Shown: positions 1 through 58,705 of the stretch, piece by piece | Layout: the number at the start of each line of letters is the position of its first letter | Numbering within the stretch: position 1 is the first letter of the stretch | Source: Monosiga brevicollis MX1 | Lineage: Eukaryota; Opisthokonta; Choanoflagellata; Craspedida; Salpingoecidae | Assembly: GCF_000002865.3 (NCBI RefSeq) | Contig: NW_001865039.1 | Span: 3,412,701-3,476,700 of the forward strand | Length of the DNA: 64,000 nucleotides | Reading direction: 5' to 3' | The notes under the pieces: model-generated | Databases searched by the model: none | The model's input: the letters and a program-made list of their open reading frames with translations, nothing else | What the model was told of the DNA's origin: nothing | Program-made: the position numbers and the translations under genes

Positions 1-3000
1 ATGTCTTGAGCTGGAGCCATGCCCACCACAAGATTATCGATAACCTAAATGATGTAGGAGCACGTTGCAACATACGTGAGTCAAAGAAAAGTGCCGGTAG
101 TACGGGCCATTTCGCAATGACCAGCGTTGAGAACAAACAAGCGAATGAACCAACTACATAACATCGAAAAGACTTCAATATGGCACGGGCCTCATACCCA
201 GTTGGATGCGCTGTCGTATCGAAACTGGATCAACGTTGCAGCTGACCGATAAGTGGATGGTAGGGTCACATATACGCGGTCGACGGACGAGATGCTCACA
301 ATGGAGATGTCATCAAAGGTCGTCCCACCGTCGCTAGAAGCAGCAACGGAGAGTCGCGTAAAGCTACCGGCATTGCTCGCCCCTTGACACCCATTTTTAA
401 CATCAAAACTCAAATACTTGGTCTCGCGCGTGTCCAAGAAGGGCGTCGTCAAAAGCTGAAGTTGGCCGGTAAGAGTGACAGCGGCGCCGTTGCCTAGTGC
501 CTCGCACGGAGTGCTGTCGTTGATCAGTTGCAGGCCCAGCGTCTGCATCCATCCTGCACCGGTGAAGCCATCAAAGTTTTCGTAAAGGTGTGCTGGCAGC
601 GGCGCAGCAGGAACACATTTCCCATTTACTAGGGTAAAGCCCGTATCGCAAACACAGCCACCCGTGGTGCAGTAACCAGCCAAGCCACAGCCTTGGTTGC
701 AAGTGGAGCCCAGGAACACGCGGCTGATGGCGAAGGAAACAGGGGGCGCAAAAGAGCTACTGGGTCCCACTGTGTTGCCAAAGAGGAGGCGGCCGAGAGA
801 TCGGGTTGCGATCGTGACGTGCGTCCAACCATCGGCAAAGTTTTCACGGTGAAGCTCGTCATTCCACAATGAAACACACGCGTCGGTAACGCCGCAGGCT
901 GTGGTCAGTTGGCCGAATGACCCCAGAGATGAAGTGCCCGATGCTTTCGAGACCTGAAGCACATCGCCGGCCTGGTCCGTGGGTCCGATAAAAATACCGT
1001 CACAACCCATGCTGATGTCCACCTCGACGCGAGCATCACTGGCTGACGAAAAGGCGTCCAATAACAAGCGGGTGCCCACCTCGGATCCATTGAAAACGAG
1101 CGCAGGGCGGCCACAGAATTCAGCCACGTGTGCACCCACGATGGCCGAGGCCTTGGACTTGAGGGAGGCAAGTGTAGATGCAGGTAAAACCTCAAAACTC
1201 AAGGGGTTTGGCGGAGGAAGCACGTCGGAGAAGATGACAAATTCATCAAGCATCTTAATAACCAAAAATCGAATAGAATGCGAGTGAGGAGGAAAAAAAA
1301 CAAAAAAAAAAAAAACACAAAGAAAAACAAGAAAATACAAAACGAACAAAAGAGGTTGATATGTGGGTCGGGTGAACATGAGCAAGAGTCTCAAGAGAGG
1401 AGCGAAAGGACCATCGAAAGCAGCAGCGCGCAACGTCAAAGAAACACTGCTTACCCAAACATCGGTGTTGCTGGCAAAGTCACCGCGCTGCAAAAACGCC
1501 AGGCGAGCCGTGGCGGAGCGCTGGGTGGCTGATAGCACATAGATGGTTTCTGCGCGAGGTTGGTAACCGTTGAAGGCGAACTCGTTCACCTTGTTCCATT
1601 CCACCCCATCATCGGTGGAGATCATCAAGGCCAGATTGCTTTTTCTGCTACTGACGCTGCCGCAATCAAGGCCGCCGCTGCACAGAATGGCCTGAACGTG
1701 GGTGGCGTGGGTCAGGTTCAGCATGCGGCTAATGACGAGTCGGTTTGTTCCAGCGCCATCAAAAACCAAAGCTCGCCCATCAGCCAGGTCACCACAACTC
1801 GCCGTCAAACGAGTGTTCATGTATGTTTCCCAAATATGACTGCCGGCGCTGCTGGGCGACAAGAGATCTGCGCGATTGAAATCGTCAGCCAAGCGGAAAA
1901 AGGGGGTTTGTGGGACGCAGAGGCCGGCAACACTGAGTGTGGCACCCACGGGACACGCGCAGCCCTGTGCCGTGCAGGTGCCGCCACCTCCACAAACACC
2001 GCAGGCTGTGCTGAGGGTGAGGTTGGCAAGGGCCCAGGGAAACCCGGCATGCTGGTTGTAGATCCGAGTACTCAAGGTCAAGGCATTGGAGGCACGGGGC
2101 ATGACTATGCGCACATGGTGCCATTTGCCGTCGTAATCGGCCGCGTTGAGGACCGGGGGCGTAAGGAGGGGAATATCAGTGCATCCATTGTCGGTCAACG
2201 GATTGCAGGATTTGGGTTGCAAAGTACCACTGGCCTGCGCATTCCACTTGAGCTCGATGGTTACGGCATCTGTGGTTGGAGCACTGGCCTCACTCACGTT
2301 GAGCAGGATGTCAAACTCCAGCAGAAAAACGGTGTCCTCAGAGTCAAAGCGGATGGGGTGAGTGATGACTTGTTGCATGCCGGCGGCACCGTCAAACACC
2401 AAAGCAGCGCGGTCGGCCAGAACACCAGGCGAGGCAGAATCTATTTGAAAGAACACGGTGGCCAGGGTTTCGGCCTCCAAATTTACCAATGCCCTGTGCT
2501 TGGGCCATGTCACAAGCTCCGAGGTCATGCGGAAAGCACGCAGCGCCTACGCATTTGATCAACGGCAATGAGGGGTCGGCGTCACTTTTTGGACACATCG
2601 TACAGCTTTTACTAAGCTGCACAGATTGACAGATGGCAATGTCCAGCGACGGAGGAGAGGCAGAACAAAAGGACCAACCACTTCGTGGTCGTGAAACGTC
2701 AAACCCGAGCCACTGTCTGCTACCAGCAAGGAGATTCGCGCTTGACGGGCAGGGTTGGGCAGGGTGGCCACCAGGGTGCTGATGCTGCTCGCTGCTTCTG
2801 TGAGGGAGGATATCAGGTAGTACTTGATGCCATCGGCCGAGTAATAAAGACCGAGCCTATCAGAGCTTTGACGGGCACAGCAATTGTTGGGCTCGGCAGG
2901 GCACGCGGCATCGGTGTCTTGGCCGGTGGTAAAGTCAATCTCAACCGTCTCGATGTTGAAGGTGTTCATCCAGGGGAGGTAGAGGTAACGGTCACCGATG

Positions 3001-4994
3001 CCGGCAAAGACGGCAACTGCGTTTGTGGTGGAACCGTCGCATCGATCCTCAGCTGAATCGGCAAAGTACACGCCCACGCTGCGCAGGGCCGCAAATTTGT
3101 GCGCGGTGAGGGGGCCATTGAGATCGATTGTGGAGACGTTGGTCACGCGGCACCCTAGCAGCGCATCGTTGACATAAGGCGCATCACATTCGCAACCAGT
3201 CGGGGTACAGCGACCCAGATTACTGCAGCCCATGGGGCAGGTGGCTTCTGTGAAAACGCTGAGATGGGCGATCCGCCAGGGCGCAGCGCCGTCTCGACGC
3301 AAGTACAAGCGGCCTTGAGTCCTGCAGCAAAAAGTGGGCAAAGGCAGAGCAACGAGACACAATAATGCTGTGAGTCACTGGCGCCACGGCAGCGGGCGGG
3401 GGCGGGGCGGTCGCTTGTGCCAGAGGTTGAAAAGCGCAACACACATGGCTGTGTTCTTCTCGCCGTAGGGGTAGCTGACACGGTGCCAGCGGCCAGCACC
3501 AAATACGGCAGGGGCAGGCACAAAATTACCGTTATTGTCGAGTCCATTCAACTACAGCACCGTTGAGAACAAGGAAGGTCAGACAGCAGCCAAGCAAGGA
3601 GCAAAAGGATTTGCAAGCGCGGACGGGGAGTGAAGACGCGTTGTGGCCAGCAAAGTTACCTCAACAATGGGCAGCGCTGCCGAAGAGGCGCGTTCAAGCA
3701 CGACGCGATGACTTTGGGTGGCATTGAAGGAGGCGGGGCTGGGAGCCGCGGCGCAGACATTGGTCAAGTCCGAGGCAGGTTCCATGTAGACTTCGTATTG
3801 GATCCAGAAGAGGCTGTTTGAAGCAGTGTCTTTGGGTCGAAGCGGCACTTCGGGGAGAATTTCGATGCGAGAAGCCGTTGCAGGTACGCGCACGCTGTTT
3901 GGGCGGCCGCAGTCTGGGGTGGGAGCAGGCGTGAGTGTACCTGTCCCAGTATAGATGCGCAGGTCAGTGATGTTGAAGGTGGCGGGAGTTTGAGGCTGGC
4001 AGTAGACGCGAACGTGCTCGCTGTTTCGGCAATTCTCGTTGCCAAAGGCAAGAAAGGCACACGCATCGAGGGTGCTTTCGGTGCCCGAACAGGCAGTCTC
4101 CACAAGGTCAAGATTGAAGATGTCCGAGTCGGTGGTGATGCTTGTGGTAAAGGTGGAGGTGGCGGTTGTGGCGTTGGTATATCCGAGGTTGCGGCAGGCC
4201 ACCACGGCAACATTGTTATTGAAATTGTCGTCACAAACGCCATGCCAAGCCCCAAAGGCATACAGCTCGAGCGTCAGGTCCACTGGAGACTGCCGAACCT
4301 GGCCAGCGGCGCAATCGACACGAACGTGGTCGTTGAGGCCGCAGTCTTCATCACCGAGCGCGTTTTGAGAGCAGATGGCCAGGGTGTCCTCGTTGCCGGA
4401 GCAGGCGAGGTTGTCAGCGCCAAAGACGCTCGAGTTGCCGGTGATGCCAGTTGTATAGCCGGGGGCGCGGGCGTCAAGGCCAAGAGTGCGGCAAGCCACG
4501 GTGGCATCGGCGCGGTCAAAGCTGTCATCACAGACGCCGAGCCAGCGGCCATCATAATTGATTTGGAGGTATTGCCCAGGCAATTGACGATAATCGATGC
4601 AGACGGCACGCACGTGCTCGCCCGAGCTGCAGTCATGGTCGGAACGATAAAAGCAATCGGTCAGATCGGTCTCAGTGCCAATGCAGTTGACGTTGTCCAT
4701 AAAATAGGTCGTGCCACCGACAATGGTGGGGACGTAGCGAACACCGGTGGTGGGGAGGCCGAGCATGCGACAGGCCACGCGAGCCTCTTCGTAATTGAAG
4801 TTATCATCGCACACGCCACCCCAAGTCGTGCCGTTGTCCAAGGAAATTTCGAGGTAGCCCCGGGTCTGGCGAACTTGGCTTGCCGCGGTCGACAGATCTA
4901 GCAGGGCCAAGGCTATGATCAGTAGACCCCACTGTAAAGTAGAGAAATGGCGCAGGCTTGGCGCCATGGCGAGGGTGAAATGGTCGGACGTCAA
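1..4994 (-). CDS. SRCR and reelin-repeat extracellular protein (3' end beyond window)
   Basis: Partial gene, read right to left. Frame-consistent exons are 4994-3660, 3551-3379, 3321-2679, 2546-1455, 1253-198 and 44-1, continuing past base 1; at least 1,447 residues are visible. A hydrophobic signal peptide follows Met1 or Met10 (start 4994 or 4967). Three scavenger receptor cysteine-rich domains then fill roughly residues 40-340, with repeated GVCDD, VACR-LG and C-G-E motifs. After a linker come reelin-type repeats: modules with a CG...G-ALVFDGAG motif, a DDGVEW or DGGTTF Asp-box-like turn, and interleaved six-Cys EGF-like units (CGVCGGGGTCTAQGCACP; CNQGCGLAGYCTTGGCVC). The last visible junction restores W-VIDNLVVG, the end signature of a reelin sub-repeat. 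The likely role is adhesion or ligand binding at the cell surface or in matrix. Any transmembrane segment would lie off the window. Family assignment is strong for SRCR and good for reelin-type repeats; function is inferred. Confidence 0.85.
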
Positions 4995-5553
4995 AAATCG
5001 CCTCTTCGGGGGAGAAGTTCAGAAAGTGGATTTGAGACGCAGCTACAAGCAAGCAAGCTGTGCTGTGGTGTGCTGTGGTGTGCTGTGCTGCACTGGCTGG
5101 CTGGCAGGGGTTTATGCACTGTGCAGCATGCCGTCAGCTGCCTGCAAACGTGTCTTGATTGGGCAGAAGAAGCAAGGTTGGAAATCAATGCAGCGTGGGC
5201 GGGAAAGCAGGAAAATGCCGACGGCTTGTTTGTGCAGGCACAGTAAGCGCCTGGCGCCAGCGATGTTCGACCAACAAGGCAGCCCGCCTTGACCAAGAAG
5301 GACGATCAGCTCCGTTTGTGACACGTCCAGGCCCAGCGGAGCGCGCTACAATACGGCAGCGCCCAGATGATGAGAGTTGCGCGCAAGAACGTCAGCAAAC
5401 TCGATCCTGCCAAAAAAAAGAAAAGTCCAGCCCACGACAACCCCACGACCACGACCACGACGCCCAGCCAGCAGACGAGCAAGTCAACCCCGTGCCGCGT
5501 CCCAAACACGGCCCGCCCCTTTGATCCGTTCGCCCCCCCCGTGCCGTTCATCA

Positions 5554-7060: not shown

Positions 7061-10000
7061 ATGGCGGCGGCGGCGGCGGTGGAGGTGGGCGTGGTGTATC
7101 GGGTGGAGCGCGCCTTTACGTCCGGAGCGGACGATGAGATCGATCTCAAGCCGAGCGCCAAGGTTATGTTTGTGGCGGTACGTTCAGTGTGATGGCTCGA
7201 ACTTCAGCTCCACAGCACCCCCTCCCTCTTGGGGCTCCGCCCATTGACACCTCCTGAACCCGAAGTCGGCGCCTCTGACCATGGCCCTCGTTCCACATGA
7301 AAATAGGAAAACACCCTGTCACCATCTTGGTGGCAAGTGTGCACGCCTCGAGGCACGACCGGCTTTGTCCCCCGCTCGCACCTCTCCAATGGTCCCATTG
7401 GCAAGGGCAAGGTGCCCGCTCAAGTGACCCGCCTGAACATGCACGGTGAGACCTCATGCGCGCCAGGCCCTTCACACAGACACATCTTGTTGCCTGGGAA
7501 CTCCGTGCCCCAACGACTTGGCTGGTGATGACACCCACCTCTGACCAACTCAATCCTGCCCGTTTGAATACCATTCGACTCGCAGCTAAACCAGTCGTGG
7601 GTGCTGAATCCTGGGAACGCCCCCAGACGCCCCGCCTCAGTCTTGAACCACAGATTAGTCAGGCTTCATGGTATCTCGGTGCTGCCGACAAGCTTCGCGT
7701 ATGTTTTTCAAGGACTGGTCTTCAAACCCGTTGCTCCTTCATCCCTCGGCCCGCTCACCAACACGCTCATGCCGTCATGCCCTTCCACAGGTAAAAGCGT
7801 GCGCCCGCATCATCAAGGACCAAGCCCCCGAAGGCGCCTTTCTCATGCGCATCCCCGACAAGCGCTCAGAAGGTTACGCCATTTCTGTCAAAGTACGGGC
7901 AGTATTCAAGTATCCAGAAGCGATGCTCACTCGTATCAGTGTTGCGTCCGCCCCATCTTTCCATCCACCTGCTCACGGGTGCCCCATTCGCTCAGACGAG
8001 CCCGCAAAAATTGCAAAACTTTCTCATTACTTGCCGTGACGATGCGTTTGTCCTCGGTGAGCTCTCTGCTCTTTGCTCGGGTATAAAGTGCACAACGCTA
8101 CTCATGGTCTCATCACTTCACCCGCGCCTCTCCCCCATCAGGTCGCCACGAAGCCAGCACCATGCTTGAGCTCCTTCACATTCTTGCCACCGATGGGACA
8201 TCCCTTCCCGTGCCCCTCCAACTGGTAAATCTTCTTCCCTACTCCAGGAAAAAAGCCTACCCACACACCTCCTTCTTTCTCTGGTTTTTAGGCGCTGGTC
8301 ACAATCGCTCATTGTCATCGCAGGAGTACACACTGGATCTCCAGGCCGTTGAAACGATGATGACCAAGCTCCGGGACAGGTACATGCTTGATGGAAGGCA
8401 GTCGACATATCCAAAGGTTGCTCAGGTCCACATGTATTCTGACACCCTGCGTTATTCATGTGGCCTCGATGCACCAGGCGTAATTCCATTACTAGTGTGG
8501 CTACGGAGGGCAGCGAGGTATGCATGCTGTCATGTACCAGAGGGCCCAGTCTTAGAAAAAGGCCACCCCCGTCTCAAAGAATAACCATGATTCGATGCTC
8601 TTGTGTCGTGGGACAGATGGGCTCACGGCGAGGCAGTATGGCGCGTCGTCACAACCGCCAGCGAGCTGGCTTGGACCAGCTCTTCAAAAACACAGAAAGG
8701 CGCGATAGTGGCGCCAGCTCGACGCAACCCCTGGAGGTGAGCCTTTTCCACCTGCTTCCAAGAGCAGTTTGGTATCACTGCATGTCATTCCCCCCGGCCT
8801 TTTTTATTCGCAAATCTACTTGGTCAGGCTTGGTATTCTCACCGATTATCATTCTGGGACTGAACATGGTGGTTTCGCTGCAGCGCGAGGGTAGCCGGCG
8901 GCCTGACGGTGTTCGCTCAAGTCCTTTTGTAACCACTGCCGAAGCCGATGCCCTGGTGAGTCCTACAAGGCAATTTGCGCGGTCGGTAGCTCGCGAAACT
9001 CACTGGTTGCACTGTGCTTGGCAGGATCATGCAAAGGCCACCGGCAACATGAGTTTGGCCGCGATTGCAGCGCTCGCCCACAAGGACGGCAGCTATGTGA
9101 CCCTAGCTGAGCTGCAAGCCATTACGGCCGATACCATGACCGATCACCAGTTGCATTGTCTTTGCGCTGGCCAAAGCGTCTTCTTCGAACGTAAAACCAT
9201 GCGCGAAATATCCAAAGTCGTCAAAGCCAAGGCTCGCGTACGTCTCTTGCTTGCCAGCCAAACCCGATCCCTCCTCGTCAGTTTTGATGGCTGAACTCGA
9301 ATTCACTGGCACTGTCGTCTGTCACAGGCTGAGTTGCAGGCACGCCTCGACAAGCGACCCAACATTTCGATCTACGAAGAAGCACGCGCTTGGGCTATGG
9401 CTCAGGTGCGACTGCCAGCGACAAATTAGCTCGACTTGAATGTTGTTTTTTTATTCGTGGTTTTTGTTCTATGGCTCAGCTGTGCCACACATCTGACCCT
9501 TTGCGATTCAAACTCGTAGGGAGACGTGACGCCACAAGCAGTATCGGCGGGTGAGCAGGATGAGTTTGAACCAGCCAGCGAGCCGCCCACGCGCCCCGGC
9601 TCTGCCATGTCATCCGGGCCTGCCGTGGTACATGGAGCTGGTCCGACCGTGGCACCAAGCTTTCTCTCTTCACCTGAGGGATCGCCACCTGCCACTACCA
9701 TGGCCACTTTTCATATCCCGCCTCCGCCAAGCACGCCGCCCCCACCCAACGACAATGACGTTGCACTCAGCTACGGCACACCATTGGTGGAGGTGGCGCC
9801 GGGTCTGGATGCTCCACGGCGCACCAGTTTTTCATGGTCCATGCTCGCGAATAATGCGCCAACTGTCCGCAACACCGACTCGACTAGCCAGGATCACGTC
9901 AACCCTTCGGCCATCGAGAGGGAGGAGGACGTTGCGATTCCGCCACCCCCAGCCTTTGACGACCCGTCACAGGACGTTGACATGTACACGGACACCGTAG

Positions 10001-12398
10001 TTCCTCCTCGATCAGAGCCCCTCTTTTTGGATGCACGGGGCGATTTTGGTGCGTCCTTGCCCTCTGCTCAGCACCTTTGCATTGATTCTTTATACATGCA
10101 TGAACCAGTGCTCATTGGCGGCCCCGGAACACCACCGTGGGCTGCCCAGCTCTTCCTGACCACCTGCTCATGTCTTGGCCGCTCCCCGAATCGACTCGTG
10201 CCGTTCACTCTTAGACGTGTTTGCCATGGCTTATGCGCTGGACAGTTCCCTGCCCACAATGGCTCCAACCCCAAACGACATTGCGGAGCTCTCCACTGTG
10301 CGCCGCTCATCGTCGTATCGCCCTACCTCGGCCTCAACCCCGCGCAAGCCCAGCGGGCAGCGGTTCGGCCGTCGACCTTCGTCCATTGCAGACCCAACGG
10401 AGCCGGCCGATCACGGACCATCATCCATGCCCGACGTACATGACAATGACTTGGTCCTGGCACCCATGCCTTCTCGAGCATCACTATTAGAGGCAGACTT
10501 GGATGCGCGCCGTCGCTCGCAAGCGGGCCTCCGGCAGCGGCTCAAGTCCTCAGACGACTTTGTTGGCCGGGCCCGATGGAACACCTTGTCCGAGCGGGAA
10601 GAAGAGGAAACCCGCTCTCATGATGCCAAGGCAGAGGCGTCGCGTACTTTTGAATATGTGCACCTGCTCTGTGCAGATAGTGTCAAGGTCCGGGCGCGCC
10701 GTGACCTGCTCCAACACACCAAAGCGACTTCGCCACTGCACACCGCGTCCGTGGACGAGGTCCTGCATGTCGAAAGCGCTGATAGCGCAGCGGTCAAGGC
10801 GGTCCTGGACGTCATGGAGCGTCTGGATGCCAACGATCTGCTGCCGACGCCACCGGATGATCAACCGCTGCTTGTGCGTGTGGCCCATGCTTGGCCCTTG
10901 CGCCTGTGGCCTTTTTGCTCTGAGCACGGCTTGGCCCTGGTCCAGGATGCCATCATCGACACGGTGGTGGCCGATCTGCATGTTGGTAACGCACTGTACT
11001 ATTTTGAGCTGGCCTCGCGGCTAGGTCTGACAGAAATTCAAGATGCAGCCCAACGTCTGGTGGAGACTTTTCCGAGCGTGATCTTTACGCAACCCGGCGC
11101 CTTTAATGTGTCAGAGCAATGCTTGGCGCGCCTGGTGCAATCTGACTTGCTGGCTCTCAGTGAAGTGGCCGTGTGGCACCTTGTCACGCAGTGGGGTCTT
11201 TTTCACGCAGGCATCTCGAGGACAGATTGTCTCAGCCCACAGGTCAACTGGACGACACAGAGCTCGTCAGCCGAGGCACTGGGCCAGGATCAACACATGC
11301 GTGCCGTTGCCGTGGAGGGGGCACGTGATTTGCTGGGCCTCTCGGACTCTGCACAAGACCTGCTGCGTCAGTCGTTGGCCGGCATCTTGGGCAAGCTGCG
11401 CTTGCTCGTGTTGGAAGAGGCTTTTTGTCACGAGGTAGTCTTTGCATCTAATCTGTTGGGGCCGGAGCTAACCCAAGAGGTGCAGGATCACCACACGGGC
11501 CGTGTTGGGCTCCCAGTGGATCACATCTACTTGCGCCCGCGCTTGGGCATGCACCCCTTTGCGCAAAGCGCCATTCTGTCTGAGGAACAAGGACGCATGT
11601 TGCACTCCTGGGCGGGGCAGCCGCATTTGAAATGGCGACGTCTGTTTAGCGCGCATGCTGCCAGCGTCAATCCCGAGGACGCTGGTTTTGCTGCAGATGA
11701 CTTCAACTCGCTGTGTGGGGGTCGTCGCCCCACCTATGTGGTCATTGAGGCTACCAATGGTCTTGTGTTTGGGGGCTATACGCCATGCGCGTGGCATGTA
11801 CGGGACGAACGCCACTTGCCCTTGGCCTATGCGCCATTGTCGGTACGCAGCCAAGGACATCGCGATGCTGCCTACCATGTGCGGTTACTGAACCAAGCCG
11901 GCCTCAATTCCTTCTTGTTTTCATTGGTCAACACTCGGCAAACAGCACCACAACGCGCTTTTGCCATCGACCCCGGTGCCGCTGTGCGGCCTGCCGTCCA
12001 TACGGGTCCTCACTTTGGCGGGGCTTCTCACCTTCTTCCCGATCTTTGCGTTGGCAATGGCTGCACCGAAACCACTGGGTAGGTGTGACCCCATCCCACT
12101 TTTCGCCCTCACAACCTTGGTGTCGATGCTAATGGCGCACGTGTGCCAAGTAGGTCTGTCTGTCACTATCCACAGGCCTATCGTGGCATGGATCTTACGC
12201 CGAACGAACTCACAGGTGAGTGAGGAGACCACTTGCGATGTGCTTTTTTTTTTTTTTTTTTTTTTTTTCGTTTCGCATCTATCCTCGCAGGCACTCATCG
12301 ACACCTTTTTGAATAACGCAGGAGGGACGACTTTCCAGGTCCAGCGACTTGAGGTCTTTGGCCTGGATTCATGTGGCGCTGGAATTAGTGATGTGTAG
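7061..12398 (+). CDS. SH3-SH2-BTB/BACK-TLDc multidomain protein
   Basis: Sixteen exons: 7061-7177, 7307-7445, 7586-7698, 7791-7892, 7996-8056, 8142-8224, 8324-8379, 8496-8517, 8617-8736, 8884-8955, 9025-9237, 9328-9405, 9520-10048, 10215-12078, 12176-12215, 12291-12398; about 1,238 residues. An SH3 domain lies near residues 10-70 (VVYRVERAFTSGADDEIDL, then SWWQV and GFVPRSHL). An SH2 domain lies near 111-200 (SWYLGAADKLR; GAFLMRIPDKRSEGYAISVK with the FLVR-type Arg present). A low-complexity Pro/Ser linker follows. A divergent BTB plus BACK region sits near 713-973, and a C-terminal TLDc domain contains GPHFGG and FQVQRLEVFG. SH2 and SH3 suggest phosphotyrosine-dependent recruitment; BTB/BACK suggests dimerisation or cullin-3 contact; TLDc proteins act in oxidation resistance or V-ATPase control. 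The last two introns are less certain: the alternative frame of exon 15 (AYRGMDLTPNELT) fits TLDc better but does not keep phase. Confidence 0.8.
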
Positions 12399-13145: not shown

Positions 13146-14153
13146 TTAGAAACCGTGCACCTTGATCTAAAGCAGCAGAGAATCGACACCCAAAGCCGGG
13201 CAGCCAACAAGGTCCTGTGAGCTCTATCAAAGGCTGAGCGACTCCCGCAAAAGTAACAAGCCCAGCTTGTCTCATATGATCAAGAGTCACGCTGACAAAA
13301 GATCAGGCATGGGCATGTATCGTCCCCCGCCCCCATCTTCTTGCGGGACCTTTGTCGACGACACCACAACGCAGAGGGAGGAGCTCAAGGGGGCACGCAC
13401 CTGCTCCTTGCGGGCAATGCCGACACCCGAAAGGAACTCAAAGACAGATTTGCGCTGATCACCCTGCAGCTGAATCACCTCTCCATATTCGGGGTGCGTG
13501 GACACGTTGCCGTTGCAGGCAAACTCCTTCTTAAAGGCCTTGACCAGACGCTTTTGATCGTACTCGGGCGAAATGCCTTGCACGGTCGTCAGGGTCTTAC
13601 GACCGCTGCGCTGCTGGATACTGTGGGCAGAGATCACGGTCATGAGCGATTCCACAACTGCACGCCAGGTCTGTATTTGAGCGGTTGCAACAGCAGGCCC
13701 GTGCACGAGGGAGAGGCCAAAAAAAAAAAAAAAAGGATCAGGTTAGGTGAGCAACCGACCGGATGTGGATGAAGCCCTGCTGCACACCAGAGGTCTCATC
13801 CTCTATCGCGTCTGCCGCAAAGGGGTCTGCAACAAGGGGGCAAGGAGGAGGAAAGATCGAGGTCAGCCTCCAAGGCGTCGTAGGCGCAGCAGCAGAGCAC
13901 CGGCCACAGAAAGCATTCATCATCTGCTGGCCTCGTCAAACGAAGAAGCAAGTCACACAAAGAGGCAGCGCGGCCCTTCCAAAGCAACCCCGAGATCACC
14001 GAGAGTGTCTACCCGTGCTCCCTAATGATGGTCAATCGCCAAAGGTCCCCCACCATCTCCCCGTCCCATCAGCCAACGGCAAAGGCGCTGCCATTCCTAG
14101 CCCATCTCTCTCTCTCTCGCACACACACACACACAGACCACGAGGCCTCATCG

Positions 14154-16996: not shown

Positions 16997-19900
16997 TCAC
17001 TGCTCCAGCAGCTGCAAAAGTGAAACAAAGGTCTGGAGGGCTGCGAGCCCTGGCGGCACGGCCTTGTAATGCGGTGCGCTCACATGGATCGAATCAGGCA
17101 GGCCCAGTAAGGTTTGGCACACCGCATTGTCGGAGAATATCAACATCTTGGGCAGCGTTCCCCACCATGGCGTCACCTGTAGCACGTTACGACAAGCTTC
17201 GAGGTCGTAGCACGGGCACACGAGGATGTCGTCAGGATCGGCATCCTCCCATTCACCCTCTGCCACAGCCACGGCTTGGATGAAGCGCCAGGCCAATGGC
17301 ACGTTACGCAAGATTTCGTGCAACGTTTCAAACATTTGGGCCTCTGGGATTCCCGTTACTACCATCAGCTGCCGTTCTTGCGCCAAGAGATGCCGGCGCA
17401 CGTGGAGGTGAAGTGGGTCCGGGAGAAGGGATGCGGGCGCCATGGGCAGATCGTCGGTCAAGAGTGACCATGGATTGCGAAGCAAGTCTGTGTCCAAAGC
17501 CAGACGCAGGGCGAGTCGCAGGGAGGGCTCCAGTGCCTCGTGACACATCACCTCGTAGGGCGAAGGCAGGAGGGGCGCACGACGAGCCGATTTGACCCAG
17601 TCCAACCAATCGCTGGGGTTGTCTTGCAGACTTTCGCTCAAGCGAGAGAGCTCGTCCAGAGTGATCAGATACTCAATCGCTTCCTCCGAAACACTGGGCA
17701 CCGTCAGCAGCTCGTCCGGCAAGGCCGCGGAGTGGGTCAACTGCGTTTGAGTGGCGTTGCGCCGTGCTTCAGGCGGTGCCAGCACCGCATTAGCCGTCAT
17801 CACTAGGACCTGCAAAGAAGGGGACGATGGCAGGCGCACTGCTGCCGGGCTCACATCGTACACGGGTCGGAACGCCAGCAGCTTGAGGTAAATGGCCAGC
17901 GCCACCAAACCCATGGTGTGATAGGGAAAGCGATGCCGCAGGTGAGCCAGTGCCTCCCGGCACACCATGAGGTACAAGCGATGATCGCCCGCGCTCAGGT
18001 TGCCAAACAAACCCCACGCCGTGGTGGGCTGTGCATCATCATTGCGGATGCGTGCCAGACCTGCAAATTCCATGGCACTTTCGTGTACGCGCTCCAGAAA
18101 AGCTGTGAACAAGGGCGGCTCCAGTTGAAAGTGGCGCATGGCGCGGCAGACCATCTCGTAGCAGATGGTTGCCATGCGTGCCAGAGGTCGATATCGGTCC
18201 CGGCGCGCATAAATGAGGACTCGGTCCCAGCGCTGCTGCACCAAACTTGTGCGATAGTAGCGCGCCTCGGCGTACAGCGTGTTCACGTGCAGGTGCAGGG
18301 CATCATCCGCCACTTGCCGTTCATCCAGGTCCGAAACAAGGCGTAAAAGCTCGGCCACGCGCCGCTGTTGGGCCGCAGCCAGCTGTGCATGCTCTTTGCA
18401 GTCGGCTGCAAAAGCAATGCCGATATCAGGCTGCAAAACACTAACCAACTTTTCGAGCAACATTTCTTCCCATAAACGTCCATCACCAAGCGGCACGTAG
18501 CGCTCAACGTCCACGTTCATCAGAGCTCGGCGCCCAGCACGGGCTGCCACCGGTAGCGCGAGACGTTGGGCACGCCGAATCTGACAAGGCACGTGAAGGC
18601 GATCTTGACTGGGAATGCCCAGCCCATCCACGACCACCAAATTGGCAGGCAGGCAGCCACACACCAGCTGCAGCTTCTGAACAGATGGGATGGGAACGGT
18701 TGTCAGAGCATCCAAGGCTTCCCACCGCACACGAAGAGGCAGGGACTGCCCCGGGCTAAGGTATTTGGACACGGGCAGTTCACACAGGTGACATTGCTCT
18801 TTCATAGCCTCGAGCCACACGCGGGCCTCGTCGCTGTTGAGATCATCTGTATAACAAAGGTACCCACAAGCAATGACGGCGTCCGCCACCACGGCCTGCG
18901 CCTCCAGCTCCTTCTCTCGCAGCATGCCCATCAGCTCGTCGTGGAAAACGCGTGTGGCACGGCGGATTGCATCCAAACGAGCCAGTTTGGCTTTGACAGC
19001 CTCCAGTTGCAATTGGGCTGCGCTCATGCGCTCGCGGTTGACCTCCAGCTCAGCCAAGGTGACAGCCATCTGACCCTCCAATTCTTGAACCGTGGCCGTC
19101 AAGCGCGCTAGCTCCTCGGCCACCAGTTGCAGCTGATGTGCAGCCCGCCCCCGCTCTTGCAAGGTCGGACGGCACTTGCGGCGCGTGGCCGCATACTCAA
19201 TCACTGCTGCCACCCATCGACCGATGCATGCAGCAGCACGCGAAGCCTGCCCCAGTCGACTGAAATCAAATTCCCGTGAGCCAGCCAGTGACATCATGGC
19301 GTCGAGTGTCACATCAGGTATCTGGTCCAAGTCCATCTCTGCCATGTGCGAGAATAGCTGATCCTGGACCAGCAAGTACTTGGCCTCCTGCCAAGTGGGT
19401 GTCGCGAGCCCCTGTGGCAACGCACCGTTCTTGTAGGCAAATCGGCCACGAAACAACAGGCAAACGGGCAACATGGCCACCTCCACCGCGCGAGGTGGTT
19501 GCACGTAAGAGCGCAATTCGTCAACATCGTGCTTGTCGAGTTGGTTTATTTCTGCCGCTGCGTTGGAGATGCCAGGCCGTAAACGGCCCAAGAGAGCTTC
19601 AACCTGGTCCGACGTGTGTCGCAGCAGCTCCTGCCGACGTCCGTGCTCCGCTTCCTGCAACCGATGACGCTTGTGCACGATGCGTAGCTCGGTTTCCAGC
19701 TCGCGCTGGCGCGCAACCAGTTGCCCCACACGCTGGGCTGCCGCACGAACTAGCCCCTCTATACGCATCTGCTCACGCTCAAAGTTACCCCGCAGTGCCT
19801 TCTCACCGCCCAGCACCGCCAAACCTTCACTCAGACGTTGGAGCTCACACAGATGCGCGGCCACGGCCTCGGGAAGTAGCAAAAGCAGAGAATCAATGAA

Positions 19901-22900
19901 TATTTGCGCGCGCTGTCCACCTGTGCATCGTCGGCTCGTTGTGATCCGCGTCAAAAGCTGTTGCATCTGCTCACTCTGCAACGCCACTAGGTGTGGTTCA
20001 CGCCACAATTGTGAGCTGCGGAGTGCCAGCAAGATGCCCTCAAGGTAATCGTTGGAGCTCCACGCAGGGCAGGGCACTGGCTGCGGCGTAGTATCGGTCC
20101 AGGTAAATTCAGACCGCACAGCTGCCCGTTCATTCTCACCGCGCTCGAGCAGGAAGACGATGCGCAAGTTGGCGGGCATCAGCATGAGCTGGGTTTGTAG
20201 CGCCAGGCTGTCGTCGTGCTCTGGAAAGCGTAGGGCGGTTTCACAACCAGCGACCGCCGGGGTATATCGGGGCGCACGCACCGCCACCCGCGGCTGCGTG
20301 CGAGCTCGGTGCTGGGCACGCCAGCGAGCCCGATTACCGGCCACCGTGCTAAAGCGCACCATGCTCAGTAGATGGGAAAAAATGGGCTGTGCCCATCCGG
20401 GCACCGCACAACCGCAGCGCAACACGAGGATTGACGTGCCTCCGCCCTTGGTCGTTGTGGAGCGTCGGGCCTCGCTGGGCAGCTCAGACCATGCGCCTTC
20501 ACCCGACGCCTCCGCTCCGGCCTCGGGCTGCTCGGTTGCCCCGATCACAGGCACATTTGCAGCAGCTTGGAGCTGCCGCAGAGCAGCGGTCATCTCTCGC
20601 AAGAGGCCGGATGAATCATGAGTGGCCTCCACGTCCAGCGTCACCTTGTGTGCCCCAATCAAAGTGGCGCCAATCTCAGTGAGCGTAGCCCGGCCTGTTT
20701 GAGCAGGCCCCCACAACATGACGGGATGCGCGGGAATCTTGAGTAACATCTCCATGGCGAGGGCTAGTCGAACGACTCGCATGGGAAGCACGAGAGAGCG
20801 CATCAGCTTGTTCGCAACACTGGGCATGACTGGCACAAGCAATGCAAGGCGCTGTTGAACTCGCGCAAGTGGTTGCGGAGTGGTCATTTCATCTAGCGAG
20901 TTGTCCGAGGCAAAGGCGCAGACTACGGCATGGTCGGGTCGAAGAATCAAATCTGTCGCATCAGGCACGTGTGCCGTCAGCTGGGCGCTCAACCATTCAT
21001 GAAGTACCACAGACAGCTCCCACGAACCGTCTGGCTCGGCATCAATCAGCAAATACTGCACAAGGGTGTATGCCACGACATGACAAGCCGCGCGAATCGG
21101 ACTCCCGTGCGACACTACGGAGCGCTCGGCCACAAAGCGGAGCGCAGCGCTAACGGCGGCCAGAACGTGACTCAATACGGGCGCGCGGTTCCATGCGGTA
21201 AATTGTTCGAGTGACTCTTGAACCAGATCCAGAAAAACCACGGCCAGAGACGGCAGACGCTCGGGATTCACCTCTAGCAAAGCCAGGGCGCGTGCAAGAC
21301 CATAGTACGCTGTACGCCGGTCATCCTGTGCATCGGGTGCAGGCAGGCGGAGCAGACCGCCAGGAAGAAACCGCACTGGTGCTCCATGATCCACGCCCAC
21401 AATGACGTGGTGTAGTGCTGGGTGGAGACCAAGCGCGTGGGATAGGACGGCAGCGCCATGCTGAAGCTCGATCACACGTGGAGTCGCCACAAACTCGGAC
21501 AATCGTCGCCAACTGGTCCGCGGACTGTGAATCAATAGAACGTCTGAGCCTGTGGTCAAAGTGGGCAATACCGAGCCAGCCACGCTAAGCGCGCCACCTT
21601 GGGTTCCCGCCACAAGGGATGTTGCCGAGGTAGTCAGCGCCGTGTCATTCATTGTGCAGAGGAGACCCTGCTCTCGGGCCGTATTTTGCACAAATTCTAC
21701 GAGGTCCGCGTGCTGCTGTCCCAGTACCGTGCACGTGATACCGTGAGCAAGTAAGCGAGCGAGAAATAGATGAGACACCTGGCGTCGCGCCCCACAGCGA
21801 TCGGAATTTTCGTCCAAGTCAAGACCGGGTGATGCAGAGGTAACGACCACGTCGGGCATGGACAAGCCATCAAAAACGGTGGGTGCCTCCGTCTCGGCGT
21901 GTGCCGGTGAGTTTGCTTGCGGCGTTGCAGTGGCGCTTGCGGCCTCGCTCTCGCCTGCGCCACCCCCCTGGCTATCACGCCGGGCGTCGGTGCTATCCAC
22001 CATATCTGGCATGGAAATTGGTACAAGTTGGCCAGAGGCCTCGTCCAACCAGCTTTCCAGTAAGGCCCGGGGATCAGCAAGAGTAAAGGGGGCCAGTTGT
22101 GGCCCCACACGATGGAGGAACTCCACGGCATCCTCATGCAGAGGCAAGAGAGCATGAACCAATTGACCCAAGGCTAGACGGAAAGCATTTCTAGCAAATG
22201 CGCTGGTCGAGTCAAGTGTCGACCGCTTGTCGCCTGCTAAGCCCAGCGTCGGGGCCACGATGGCGGTAAACCCTTCGAGAAGATAGGCGGCGGTACCCGC
22301 CAGCGTAGGCAGTGGCCGCGCATCGCCGTCCTCGTCAACATGTGGGGTGGGTGCACGGCTGGCAAAGCTGCTGACGACGGCCGTCGCGCGGGCGAGGGCT
22401 TGCAGCTCGACCCGCAGTCCGTCGTGCACGGCTGGCAGCTGCTCCAAAACAAAGGTGGTCACCTCCTCACGCGTGCTCAGGGGTAAGCGTGGGAGCTGCG
22501 TCATGGACGCGGTGCGCCAAGCTTGCACGACCTCCTTGAGTTCAGTGGGGGACAGGCACGGGCGCAACGTACCCGCACCCTGGTCCAAGGTGAGCTCATC
22601 CCCTGAACCACAATTGGGGTCCAGCAGCATGCCATACACGCGAAGCTGCACTTGGTGTAGCGTCGAGGTACAGACGCGCAGCAGGTCACGTGCTTGGTGC
22701 TCATGAACGGCGTCGAGGATGAGGCCCAACGCGACCGACACTGTCTTGCACCCATGAGTCTGCAAGAAAAGTTCGGCCTCTTGCAATCGACGAAGTTTGC
22801 TTAACAGCGCAGTCCTGGCACGGGCCCAGCCCTCACCGGTCAGGTCAAGGGTCACCAGAGCCAAGCCTGTGCCATCTGCCCAATATTGAGACAAAGCCGT

Positions 22901-25900
22901 TTTCTTGTCCTGGCAAGTGACCCAGACATCGCATAGCCGACCTCGAATGCCTCCCGTCTGATTTTCATCGCAGGTATGGCCCATCCCGGAGGCAGTCAAC
23001 GCCTCCTCCAACGCATCGGCCACTGAGCGTGGCAGCTGCGACTGCAAGCAGCGTGCGACAACCGCGGCAGCCTCTTGAGGATCGAGTTCAGACAGAACAG
23101 AAGCATTACTGGCTTGGCGGGCTGCAAAGACCTGCACAGCCCCCTTGACAGCGGTGCTCACCAAGACACCTACGGTATCCGAGGCTACGCCTCGCGCCGC
23201 CAGCTCATCAATAGCCAAGTCAAGCACATGTGCCAGCTTCACACCAATTGCATTCAATGTCACGCCACGCGGGCCCTCACTGGTGGAGATCACTTGGTCA
23301 AGGAGGCCATATGCAGCAAACTGATCAAAGATCACTGTTGCTGGATCGAGGGCAAGTCCTCGATCCTCAGACATGGCGGAAAGCGCTGGCCAACATGGCG
23401 CCGCCGTCGCTAGGGACACGAGGCATACGCTGGCCAAGGCATCGTCCACGTCGCTGTCCGTATCCCGGGCGTGAGCCTCAGCGCTTGCATCGGCCGTGGC
23501 ATCCATATCCACACGGCGCTTTTTGCTCGAGCTTGCCCCTTCGCCACGGCTCTTGGGTGGTGCTGAGGTAAATATCCAGCTAGAAAGCTGCCGTTGCAAC
23601 TGCGCGGGAAGGACCGATACGGCGTTCCGAATGGCAGCTTGCTGCCGCCGCCGTGCCGTTTGCATACGAAAGTCAAGGTGGGGCACGCCTTGATCCGGTT
23701 CATATAGCAAGAGATCCTGCCACTGCCCGGCCACGTGCAGCTGATTTTGCGAAATGCTTGGTGCTATGCGAAGGGCACGACCGGACGCCCACGCCATCGC
23801 TTCAACTGAGGTGAGGGTCCCATTTATGCTGCCTTTGAGAACAGCGCGCCGAAGGAGAGTAATCCAAGCTGCTTGGCTGTGAGGCTCAAACATCATCGTG
23901 GGGGCACGGCCTTGCAGCGACCATCCGTATGGTGTGGCGAGCGGCGGGGTTCCAGCCTCCTTGCACGTGAGCAGGGCCCCGACCGTCAAGCCACCGAGGG
24001 CTGGCCCCACAGCGATGGGAGGATGCTCAATTCCCGAGCCGGGCTCCATCTCCAAAGTCGTGACGGGATACAAGAGGTGCCAAGTTAAGGTTTCGTCGGC
24101 CTCGGCCGCTTGGGCCGCCTCTTCTCTCTCCTCTTCATCCTCGTCCATGGCCACCTCGTTTCGCCGATCCTCGGAGGCCTGCTCTATGATTGCGCCCACG
24201 TAGTGCTCGTAGGCAGCAACGCGGTAGTGTAGAGCCCGTCGCTCCTCCTCCGCCGAAAGGCGTAGCCACACGGGCTTGCTCGGCTGCAGAGGATCACGAC
24301 TTTTTTTAACGTCTGAAGGTGCTGAGGTTGCGGATGCGTCTTGAGCAAGAACAAGCTGCAACACGTGGGGCAAGCTAGACTGCAAAGCAGCGTGCAGTTG
24401 TGCGAGGCAGCCCAAGCGCGCACAGCTGTGGCGCAGTAGCTCCATGGCCAACCAAACGACTTGAAAGGGCATCTGAGCCACGAGTCGTGGCAAAATTTCA
24501 GGCCAGTTGACGAAGCTCGCTGCGTATGCATCAGGAGTCGCCAACTCAACAACCACGGCCAATGGAGCACGGGCGTTGGCAAAGGCCACGAGCCGTTGCA
24601 TGCTCGTGTGCACAGGGGCATAGGGATTCAAAATGTCCTGCCAGCTTTTATCTAATCAATGCAAATGCAGAATGAGATTGCGTCGCAGATTCTGATCCTG
24701 GCTCTACTTCGCTATCACCCCAAAGTTTGTTTCCTTCAGCGGCAACTGATTCTTTGTCTCTTGTGTGATTGGTCACCCGCCACCCCGCCCCTCGCTTCTC
24801 CTGATCTGGCGTGCTACCCTGGGCGTGTGACGATTCTCATACCCGGTTGAGGTAGCGGTAGACCCAAGCTGGAGAGAAACTCAGCAAAAGCATGCTGCAA
24901 ACCGGCTTGCTCCGCCGTCCAAAGCTATAGCACGCAGCCGACAAGCGGTGCCACAGCATCAAGGTTCAGAAAACAGGTACAGGACAACATGCCCGTTTCA
25001 AGCAAGTGAATACAAACCTGATGCATCCATTCGCCAGGCGGATCGGAGCGCCGAATGAAGATGTGCTCTGCTAAGGTCAAGCATTCCCCGGTGACTGAAA
25101 CGATGGCGCTCACAGCACCGACGACTGAGCTGAGATCTTGCACGCGAGTGACATTTGGATCCGCCAACAACAGCCGAGCCAAAGCAGGGCGTTGACGCAA
25201 TGCCAGGGCCAGCGGTCCGTAGGAGGTGCAATCCATGAGATCACCGCCCAGCAATGGCAAGATGCCAGGCTCAAGGGTGGCAGATTCCAGGATGGGAAAC
25301 CCATCCCGTCGACACAAGAGAAGAAGCTCATGGGCAATACGTGCGACTTCGTCGTGCAACCGCAAGATAACGCGAGGCAAGTGCAGCGAGGCAGCGGCAT
25401 CAGGGTCGACGCTCACTATGGTCACACAGTTGCTGACGCGTTCCAACCGCTGCAACAGCTGATCGAACTGCTGGGCTAACTGATTATGCTCGAGCAAAAC
25501 GTCCGCCTCACCGGCCTCAAGGTCGACTTGGCCCTGTGCTGACCACCAAGCTCCGAGCAAAGCTGCACATAAATGCGCACGCTGCAAGCGCCGCAGAGTA
25601 TCAAGGCAAAATATAGTGGCCTCTAGACGCTGAATGACTTCGCGCAGCTCATCCACGAGAGCTTGGTCTGTTATAAGGAGCGGTTCGCGTTCACACCGTT
25701 GGGCATCTGTGAGCGTGAACAGCAGCCGCAGGCGCAGTTCTGTCAAACGAGCCTCATCCAGCAGCATAACGGGCTCTTGCCCATCCGTTGCTACACGCGC
25801 AAGGTTGCAGGTTCAGGCATAAGTTCCAGGTGCTCTCCGTTCAACAATGGGGCGAACTCGAACGCAGTTATCAGGGCACGCACCAAAACTCGAGGAAGGT

Positions 25901-32363: not shown

Positions 32364-35300
32364 ATGCCTGAGCTCTGGCAACACACGGCCGATTGGTTGT
32401 GCAAACTGGGCGCCTTGTCAGGCGAGGACCCCACTTTTCAAAAGGATGCCACCGTATATGATCTCACCGTAGCTCTTCAAGTACGGCGTACCACACCCCC
32501 TTGGTTTTTTTTTGTTTTGTTTTTTATTGGGGTTTTTTGTGGTTTTTTTCCTGTGCCTCGCCCACCTGGCTCGTGCAGACTTGCGCACTCGGCCTTGCCC
32601 CTCTCTCCTCACCCCCTCCCCTTGAATGCCCGGTCCCGCCTTGCCTTGCATCTCGACCCATTACATAGGATGGCACGGTCTTGTGCGACGCCGCCAATGC
32701 CCTAGTACCTGGTTGCATTCCCATTGTCAACCGACATCCTCAACAGCAGTTTCTTCGCATTCAAAACATCCATGCCTTTCTCGGCGCCCTGCGAAACACG
32801 TTCAAGATGAAGGAAGCCCACCTCTTCACCGCCGACGGCCTCCATAATGGTGGTGAAATGCCCCAAGTCGTTCAATGTCTGGCCACGTGGGCCAACACCC
32901 CTCAAGCCGTCAAACATGGAGTCAAGTTAGTGTTTTGTAACCCTCTTGCCAACGCCACGCCCCTCCCAGCGCTCTGCTGCCATGTGTGCTCACCTTTCGC
33001 GGAACCCACTCGCCCTCAGGCTTGGTGAAGCCACAAATACTCCCAACACCGCCCTCGATGCTGATGGCCGCTATGACATGTACAAATCTCTCAAGCAGCT
33101 CGTGGAACAAAATCTTTCGCTTCGCGATGCAGGAACCTACACAATGTCCCACAGTCGCCCGAATTCGATGGTCTCCGATCATCAATACTACAGTGAGAAA
33201 GTCGGCACCATGGTACGAACAGCTCCCCCCAGCGTGCCCTTGCCCGTCTCTGGCCTCCCCGGCTGCTCGACGCTGCTGGTCCAAGGTCTTTTTCTTTCTC
33301 ACACTTTTTCCTCTTCTTGTCCCTCTTCTTTTTCCTCTTCTTTTTCCTCTTCTTGTCCCTCTTCTTTTTCCTCTTCTTCTTCTTCTTCTTGTCCCTCTTT
33401 GACCATCTGACCATGCTCAAATGCAGAAACAAGTAGACGAGCTCTATTACATGATCATCTACGCAGGCAACACACCCGCTCTCAAATTGGACGAGGCCAC
33501 CGACGAGAACATTTATGGTGCAGGCGTCACCCGCGACCAGAAGCGCTCCATGGTGCTAGACGAACTGTTCTCCACAGAAAACTCATACATCAAGGTCCTC
33601 CAGATGCTGACCGGCACATACTTGCCCAATCTGCGCGAAGCTTTTAGCATCATCGACATCCACCTCATCTTCATGAACATTACCGAGATCATGGATGCCC
33701 ACAATCGCTTTCTGGCTGACCTTTCGGAACTCATGGCCCGCACCACCGGTCGTATGGCGGGAACCTGCTTACTCAATCACGTCACCAGCTTTCGCATCTA
33801 TGGCGAGTACATCAGCATGCTTCCAGACGCCATTGACCGCCTCAAGGTCATGCGGAAAAAGGCGCCGTTTCAAGCCGTAGGTCGCTTCGCGAGCCGGTGC
33901 CGTGCCGTTGAAACGCTCTGCCATTATCTCTCGCGCCTCATTGCCAGCCATCGATGTACCTCAAACCACGCCATGCCGTATGCTTTGATCATCCTCCTCA
34001 GGCATTGCAAGCGGCGCAAAAGGCCAGTGGCCAAATATTTCCGCTCGAAGATCTTCTCCGTGTGCCCATGCAACGCATTCTCAAGTACCCTCTCATGATC
34101 AAGGAGCTTCTCAAATCGACTCCATCTGATCACCCTGACCTTGACAAGCTCCGCGTCGCCAACACTGCATTCCAGGACTTGGCTACCTACATCAACGAGT
34201 CCAAGCGCGACCGTGACAATCTTCTCAACATTATCCAAGTCTGTGCTGCACCCGGGCTTTCATTGCTTGATCTCGCCTTGCATTGATTTGTGTGCTTGGT
34301 TGTGGTGTCCCTTGCTTTCATGGCTCTTGGTTGTCGGCCCGTACAATTTCCCCCCAACCCTTACACATGTGCTCGCTTGTCTCGGCCCACGAACAATTAG
34401 AACGTGAAAAAGTACAAAGGCAAGCCCATCAAGGACTTTGGCAAGCTCTCGCGTGATGGCGATCTCTGGGTGATTGACCACGTCATTGGCGACAAGGGCA
34501 AGCTTCGGTACGATGCCCCATCATGTGTACATCTCTGTGCTGACATTGTGTCTGCGTGGTGGGTGGACTCCGTGTCCAGCTGATTTTTTCTGTGTGGGGG
34601 GTTTCTCGCAGCTACGTCTTTCTCTTTGACTTTGGCATCATAGTATGCAAACACAACAAAGGTTCCTTCAAATTCAAAGCATCGGTGGAATTTCAGCACC
34701 GGCAGAGTGTTGAAAGCGTGTCCGACCCTGCCGGCGAAGATGGCTATCCCCATCGCTGGCGTCTGATGGATACCAGCGGCAAGAAGCCTGTCCCCCTGCT
34801 AACCTTTGGAAGTTACCACGAAGCCACCAAAATGCGCTGGATGGACATGATTCGGGGCAAGATGCTGGCCGTGGCTACCCCGGCTTCCCCACCACCGCTC
34901 CGGGCGCGAATGTCACTGCGCGCGCCCAACGGGGCATCTAGCTCTCCAAAGCCTCGTCGCTCGCTGAGCGAATCGGCAGCCGTGGGCAGTGGCCTGGCGC
35001 GCCCCCCCTCCAGCCCGCGCCCTGTTTTGAGCCCACCCATTGTTGGGCCGCGCGTACCTCGCAACTCTGTTGCCGACGATGAAGCCTGGTTCTTACCTGG
35101 CGCTGCCAGCCTTTCCGAGTCGGTACGTGTCCAAGACTGGACAGATGGTGCATGCTAAGCAGGCTCGTGCTGATGCTCGTTCTCGCATGACCCTCATGAT
35201 GGCTTAATGTTTGTTTCTGCTTCATTGGGTGGATGCAGGAGCTCAAGGATCTACCGGACGGTACATTTTTGGTGCGCGAGAGCACCTCCCGACAGGGCTC

Positions 35301-35961
35301 GTATTCGCTCACTGTTGTTTTTCAAAACGAGGTCAAGCACATCAAGATTTTGCGCGACGGCACACAATATCGTCTGACCGAGCATGCTGAGGGCTTTGAC
35401 ACGGTGCAACAGCTCGTGGCTTTTTTCCAGCGACAGAACCTGGGCACTTATTTCCCAACACTGGACACGCCCTTGGTGATGCCTTATCGAAGCGTCATGA
35501 TGCAGCGTGCGCTAGACACGGACAGCAGCGACATGTGCGTATTTGCGCCCTGTAGGCATGGGCTGCCTCGCATTGTTCTCTTCTTGGGCCCCGCGTGTTT
35601 TCATGAGTTTCCCGTCGAGGTTACCACCAAGCTGGCAGACCTGAACATGCTGACATGGGCTTGGTCTCCTTGTGACAGGTTGTCTGGCATTGGCCGTGCT
35701 CGCGCACTATTTTCATACAAGGCGACAGCGGACGATGAGATTAGTTTTGACAAGGGGACCGAACTGGTGCTGCTCAACGTGGTTGAAGAAGATGACGGCT
35801 GGTGGCGTGGTCGCCTCCCGGATGGTCAAGTCAGTGCCACAGCTAGATGCTGCTATATGCTGCTATATGCTGCCATGTATGCGAATCGCTCCTGCTGACT
35901 CATCACCGATGCGCTTGTATAGACCGGGGTCTTCCCAGCTGCCTATGTGCAGCGCTTATAG
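32364..35961 (+). CDS. VAV: Vav-type Rho guanine nucleotide exchange factor
   Basis: Ten exons: 32364-32480, 32669-32925, 33020-33212, 33427-33876, 34002-34238, 34401-34507, 34612-35122, 35239-35534, 35679-35829, 35923-35961; 785 residues (animal Vav about 845). Domain order is a calponin-homology domain (1-124, MPELWQHTADWLCKLGAL and DGTVLCDAANALVPG), a Tyr-bearing acidic-region equivalent (about 125-225), DH (about 228-415, LLRVPMQRILKYPLMIKELL), PH (about 419-510), a Pro/Ser-rich linker, SH2 (about 612-705, DGTFLVREST with the phosphotyrosine-binding Arg) and SH3 (about 728-780, ALFSYKATADDEISF and GWWRGRLPDGQ). The C1 zinc finger and the first SH3 of animal Vav are not seen. Predicted role: activation of Rac/Rho downstream of tyrosine kinases. 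The start at 32364 is chosen because it matches the Vav N-terminus; an upstream in-frame codon at 32157 is unlikely. Confidence 0.93.
33300..33400 (+). repeat. Polypyrimidine repeat in Vav intron 3
   Basis: Tandem variations of CTTCTTTTTCCT and CTTCTTGTCCCT, with a terminal (TTC)n run, lie just before the acceptor of exon 4. The tract probably strengthens that acceptor. Confidence 0.85.
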
Positions 35962-58661: not shown

Positions 58662-58705
58662 CGCTCAGCTCCTCCTTTTTCTCGCCGTGAGTCGGGCCCG
58701 CCAGC

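Follow-up and report, generated by a model that had tools for sequence, protein, structure and literature searches.

What does a gene encode that seems to place a phosphotyrosine-reading cassette in front of a TLDc domain, and what would its product do? The question is raised by a locus at positions 7061..12398 of the plus strand in a 64,000-nucleotide stretch of Monosiga brevicollis DNA (the window), in which an initial annotation had recognized sixteen frame-consistent exons joining an SH3, an SH2, a divergent BTB/BACK, and a TLDc domain. The species is borne out by a 33-base primer with which MbAbl2 was cloned from Monosiga brevicollis cDNA (PMC4474922) and which matches the genome once, without a mismatch. 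The locus carries a continuous coding frame with SH2 and TLDc matches, a BACK match when slices of the protein are searched, and the characteristic arginine of the SH2 domain. Judging from the sequence, it is very probably a single gene that joins SH3-SH2 to BACK-TLDc. We favor, with a probability of about 0.4, the explanation that the product is an adaptor bringing a V-ATPase-binding TLDc domain to tyrosine-phosphorylated sites.

The exon structure holds as annotated in its overall form, with sixteen exons giving a single open frame that opens with the ATG at 7061 and whose stop codon ends at 12398, as indicated by frame continuity and codon bias. In the model used here, in which the last two exons were revised, the predicted protein is 1242 amino acids long, and the 15 introns, 69-166 bases in length, are all of the GT-AG type. 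Exon 12 ends at 9405 and exon 14 begins at 10215, the two positions between which the annotation had placed a possible break. Codon bias was scored with a measure whose training set, the longest frame at each of 11 other genome loci, consists of long frames around SH2 matches and is not a random sample of genes. It was computed twice, earlier on the first exon model and later on the revised one, where the modeled frame ranks first of six in 15 of the 16 exons and second in exon 9. Splice sites were scored with a leave-one-out profile built from the 15 introns of the gene itself.

The C-terminal splice remains provisional. The exons 15 and 16 of the first model (12176-12215 and 12291-12398) were dropped on account of a lower TLD score and of the frame rank of exon 15, which was second of six by the earlier codon-bias score, whose training included an N stretch. 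Revised exon 15 (12151..12215, plus strand) encodes a C-terminal part of the TLDc domain, and revised exon 16 (12322..12398, plus strand) its last strand and the stop. Both rank first of six frames by codon bias, and the Pfam TLD (PF07534) score on the slice increases from 30.7 bits in one matched stretch to 37.8 bits (E 2.4e-9) in two, hence our choice. Exon 16 is indicated by frame, Pfam TLD, and codon bias, and exon 15 by the gain in TLD score. Two results count against the revision. A profile of the M. brevicollis TLDc paralogues scores both exon models almost alike (11.6 versus 11.3 bits), and the atypical acceptor of exon 15, at 12150, scores -7.1 (leave-one-out), the lowest of the 15 introns, intron 9 being at -5.4. 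The hexamer GTAGGT stands at each boundary of revised intron 14 (12079 and 12150), and the acceptor has little pyrimidine tract.

The N-terminal part of the protein begins with an SH3-like domain at about aa 10-68, encoded by exons 1 and 2 (7061-7177 and 7307-7445; together 7061..7445, plus strand). The annotated SH3 survives as an SH3-like match, with 20.2 bits (E 4.4e-4) for SH3_1 on the slice, but it does not reach the Pfam cut-off of 22.9. Its best PDB matches are the SH3 domains of NCK1/NCK2 (E 0.017-0.02, weak). The SH2 domain occupies aa 114-190 and is encoded by exons 3-6 (7586-7698, 7791-7892, 7996-8056, and 8142-8224; together 7586..8224, plus strand). Here the annotation, which had seen an SH2 with an intact FLVR-type Arg, was correct: Pfam SH2 (PF00017) gives 27.8 bits (E 2.6e-6) on the slice and 23.1 bits in the whole protein, both above the cut-off of 21, and the arginine is R143 (bases 7848-7850), within an FLMR motif that aligns to FLIR of NCK1. 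NCK1/NCK2 are again the best PDB match (E 0.01, weak).

An SH3 followed by an SH2, each with NCK1/NCK2 domains as its best PDB match, recalls the Nck adaptors, whose domain order we take to be SH3-SH3-SH3-SH2. The gene differs from them in having one SH3-like domain instead of three and a C-terminal BACK-TLDc half, and the matches are weak (E 0.01-0.02). The Nck adaptor class, with three SH3 domains and then a C-terminal SH2, was considered and rejected in view of the one SH3-like domain and the long C-terminal extension.

Downstream of the SH2 domain, exons 7-12 (8324..9405, plus strand) encode a basic Ser-rich stretch and then a stretch, aa 206-398, that looks helical by eye. No significant Pfam match was found in these exons, and the modeled frame is the best of six in five of the six. 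Exon 13 (9520..10048, plus strand) encodes a Pro-rich linker and scores 15.4 in the modeled frame, the five other frames being at -35.9 or less. Exon 14 (10215..12078, plus strand), which encodes more linker, the BACK match, and most of the TLDc domain, scores 75.4 against -134.4 or less for the five others.

Whether both halves belong to one gene is decided at introns 12 and 13, whose donors are good, with 8.8 each, and whose acceptors are ordinary, with 4.6 and 3.7 (leave-one-out). If two adjacent genes had been wrongly joined, exon 12 or 13 would be the last of an SH3-SH2 adaptor, and the start of a BACK-TLDc protein would fall in exon 13 or 14, for instance at the ATG at 10226. This arrangement agrees with the stop at 9427-9429 that is encountered when intron 12 is read through, with the position of the exon 14 ATG only three full codons in, with the linker nature of exon 13 and of the start of exon 14, and with a link between the halves that is predicted from this one genomic sequence. 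Nevertheless, a split appears improbable to us, because exon 13 is coding-like ahead of its first ATG. The 29 codons in question score 5.4 in frame versus -8.8 and -21.5, a value reached by 23 of 20000 random 87-mers of noncoding composition and by 7 of 351 intron windows. In addition, exons 13 and 14 are read in different frames, which a single 166-base intron, one whose donor is good, brings into register. The intergenic gap would also be only 114 or 166 bases, whereas the nearest long frames with a strong coding signal, both on the minus strand, lie about 2.0 kb away on the upstream side and 0.9 kb on the downstream side (nearer neighboring exons are possible). We infer that the sixteen exons make up one transcript.

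The next region, annotated as a divergent BTB/BACK, is borne out in part for BACK and is not supported for BTB. BACK (PF07707) matches aa 835-902 (10994..11197, plus strand), with 23.4 and 21.0 bits on slices for a cut-off of 20.9, which it does not reach in the whole protein. In a six-frame scan of the genome (39.5 Mb in 57 contigs, as for all genome scans reported here), BACK is matched four times at E <= 0.01, once at this locus (23.4 bits, E 0.0017). The presumed BTB would lie at aa 710-822 (10619..10957, plus strand). This identity was tried in three ways and is not supported: Pfam BTB (PF00651) has no match in the whole protein or in slices, the six BTB matches obtained genome-wide at E <= 0.01 do not include the locus, and with a small home-made profile, made of three M. 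brevicollis BTB loci and an SPOP segment, 194 of 2000 shuffles score at least as high as the stretch. With the same small profile, 4 of 2000 shuffles equal or exceed the score of the BTB and BACK stretch taken as one, and 5 of 2000 that of aa 600-1242; the gain of the BTB-BACK stretch over shuffles stems from aa 810-901, which is mostly BACK. The linker at aa 400-710 shows no match to this profile.

The TLDc domain, in contrast to the BTB, is found where the annotation had it. Its main part starts at aa 1025 (11564..12078, plus strand) and extends into exons 15 and 16. The whole protein scores 31.8 bits with Pfam TLD (24.8 bits with the first exon model), so that, for a cut-off of 24.5, both SH2 and TLDc pass in a Pfam profile search of the complete spliced protein. 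The mEAK-7 chains are the sole TLDc proteins among the PDB matches. In an alignment with the TLDc paralogues of M. brevicollis, G1065, FGG at 1093-1095, and E1228 fall in conserved columns. Judging by motif, and from an alignment made up of the M. brevicollis paralogues, we presume these to be the equivalents of G815, G845, and E938 of Ncoa7, respectively; the equivalent of L926 could not be placed with certainty on the paralogue alignment. The genome has four other TLDc loci (L036-L039), of which, by eye, L036 is mEAK7-like, L037 follows a TBC-like frame, and L038 is OXR1-like.

TLDc proteins were recognized recently, in 2021, as partners of the V-ATPase (PMC8608904). In Ncoa7, G815 and G845 are essential for V-ATPase binding, with contributions from S817, L926, and E938 (PMC8608904), and the TLDc domain of mEAK7 makes contact with subunits A, B, and E of the V-ATPase (PMC9174246). 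By membership in this family, a TLDc/V-ATPase output is plausible for the protein described here. We propose that the product is a cytoplasmic adaptor, about 1242 residues long. Binding of phosphotyrosine by the SH2 domain would bring its N-terminal SH3-SH2 cassette to receptors or scaffolds that carry phosphorylated tyrosines. The long Ser/Pro-rich linker would tie this cassette to the C-terminal BACK-TLDc module, and the TLDc domain would bind to the V1 part of the V-ATPase, changing how the pump assembles or how active it is. Tyrosine-kinase signaling might in this way be coupled to the acidification of compartments such as the phagosomes of this bacterium-eating cell. A more demanding version, a phosphotyrosine-controlled V-ATPase regulator in which SH3-SH2 is fused to a TLDc effector and tyrosine kinases directly tune organelle acidification, seems unlikely to us. 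"Unusual phosphotyrosine adaptor", as the protein had been called, is a fair description, with the binding itself predicted from sequence.

Several observations weigh against the proposed adaptor. Apart from the arginine, the SH2 pocket looks divergent by eye, with Lys at the alpha-A Arg and Asn at the beta-D His, two positions that are presumed from Src. In the whole protein, SH3_2 is the only SH3 match, with 11.9 bits for a cut-off of 21.8, and BACK scores 18.7 bits. The TLDc domain resembles those of mEAK7, OXR1, NCOA7, and TBC1D24 in exceeding the Pfam cut-off and in several conserved columns, but it stands beside other partner domains, and its best PDB match, mEAK-7, is weak (E 0.038). 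By our own placing on the paralogue alignment, the presumed equivalent of S817 is Ala, and the glycine-rich bend at the presumed equivalent of G896 is kept only in part. Not all TLDc domains bind unaided: those of Tbc1d24 and Tldc1, taken in isolation, showed no V-ATPase binding in pull-downs (PMC8608904), and mEAK7 left V-ATPase activity unchanged in vitro (PMC9174246). The mEAK7 C-terminal domain, which touches V-ATPase subunit D (PMC9174246), has no counterpart here, since the protein ends shortly after TLDc.

The annotation had offered a cullin-3/BTB output as the other possibility. In such a substrate adaptor, BTB-BACK would recruit Cul3, and the SH2 or TLDc domain would select clients for ubiquitylation. 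BACK is usually preceded by BTB, and the BACK match, seen with slices of the protein and again in the scan of the genome, as well as the BTB-BACK score reached by just 4 of 2000 shuffles, would be expected from such a protein. This output is nevertheless unsupported, because no BTB was detected: neither Pfam nor the six genome matches at E <= 0.01 include one at this locus, the BTB stretch alone is equaled or exceeded by 194 of 2000 shuffles, and the gain of the combined stretch comes mostly from BACK. The class of Cul3 substrate adaptors was set aside on the same finding, an undetected BTB. We give this possibility little credence and consider a TLDc/V-ATPase output under phosphotyrosine control, uncertain as it is, the better guess. 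A stronger competitor, still on the unlikely side, is a TLDc protein of the oxidation-resistance type, in which SH3-SH2 would merely localize the protein without control by tyrosine phosphorylation, or in which a degenerate SH2 would serve as a plain protein contact. The divergence of the SH2 domain (best PDB E 0.01, several pocket substitutions by eye) is consistent with this, as is the link of TLDc proteins to oxidative stress (PMC4742741). However, the FLVR-type Arg is intact, the genome has 114 exon-level SH2 matches at E <= 0.001, and many tyrosine kinases are reported for M. brevicollis (PMC3082566), all of which argue against this competitor.

Paralogues were sought in the genome with both halves of the protein. 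The C-terminal half gave three matches, all at its own locus, and aa 1-398 gave 14 matches, 12 of them at its own locus, the other two being weak and at different places (E 0.035 and 0.14). In exon-by-exon scans at E <= 0.001, the locus is absent from the seven TLD and the 114 SH2 matches. The TLDc domain was presumably missed because it is too weak at this threshold. With an SH2 domain split over four exons and a TLDc domain presumably below threshold, exon-level counts therefore miss genes of the SH3-SH2-BACK-TLDc kind.

Proteins with the order BTB-BACK-TLDc occur in protists and fungi. They share with this gene a BACK followed by a TLDc domain, whereas the gene has no detectable BTB and carries SH3-SH2 in front. 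No SH2-TLDc protein was found among the literature matches listed, which covered papers pairing TLDc with BTB and combinations of SH2, TLDc, BTB, and choanoflagellate; the major catalogues of SH2 proteins in choanoflagellates lie outside this scope and could already include it, and the protein can therefore not be claimed as unreported. Odd SH2 combinations are a known kind in choanoflagellates, since proteins with both PDZ and SH2 domains have been reported and appear unique to Choanozoa (PMC8512817). These likewise join an SH2 to domains with which it is not paired in animals (PMC8512817), but the partner here is TLDc. The parts of the protein are ordinary and their combination is unusual, though not an isolated case of domain shuffling in choanoflagellates.

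The remainder of the window contains several other coding regions. On the minus strand, adjoining frames at 195-5018 match Reelin subrepeat B (105.7 bits) and SRCR (167.2 bits, three stretches) and may represent one or two extracellular-type proteins; a SUI1 translation initiation factor frame (78.7 bits) lies at 13290-13742, downstream of the SH3-SH2-BACK-TLDc gene; and an open frame of 2552 aa at 17000-24655 has the top codon-bias score among the long frames of the window. On the plus strand, RhoGEF (61.8 bits), SH2 (57.8), and SH3 (39.5) frames occur in a row at 33403-35895, with the look of a Vav-type gene. A KH domain frame (85.3 bits, two stretches) is found at 45071-45544, and a strongly coding frame at 58691-60151 weakly matches cysteine dioxygenase (21.7 bits, cut-off 23).

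Direct tuning of organelle acidification by tyrosine kinases, if real, would be a wiring in the closest relatives of animals that has no animal counterpart among the literature matches listed. Choanoflagellates have many SH2 proteins, some of them wired to outputs not seen in animals. An SH2 adaptor fused directly to TLDc would suggest that the proton pump is among these outputs.

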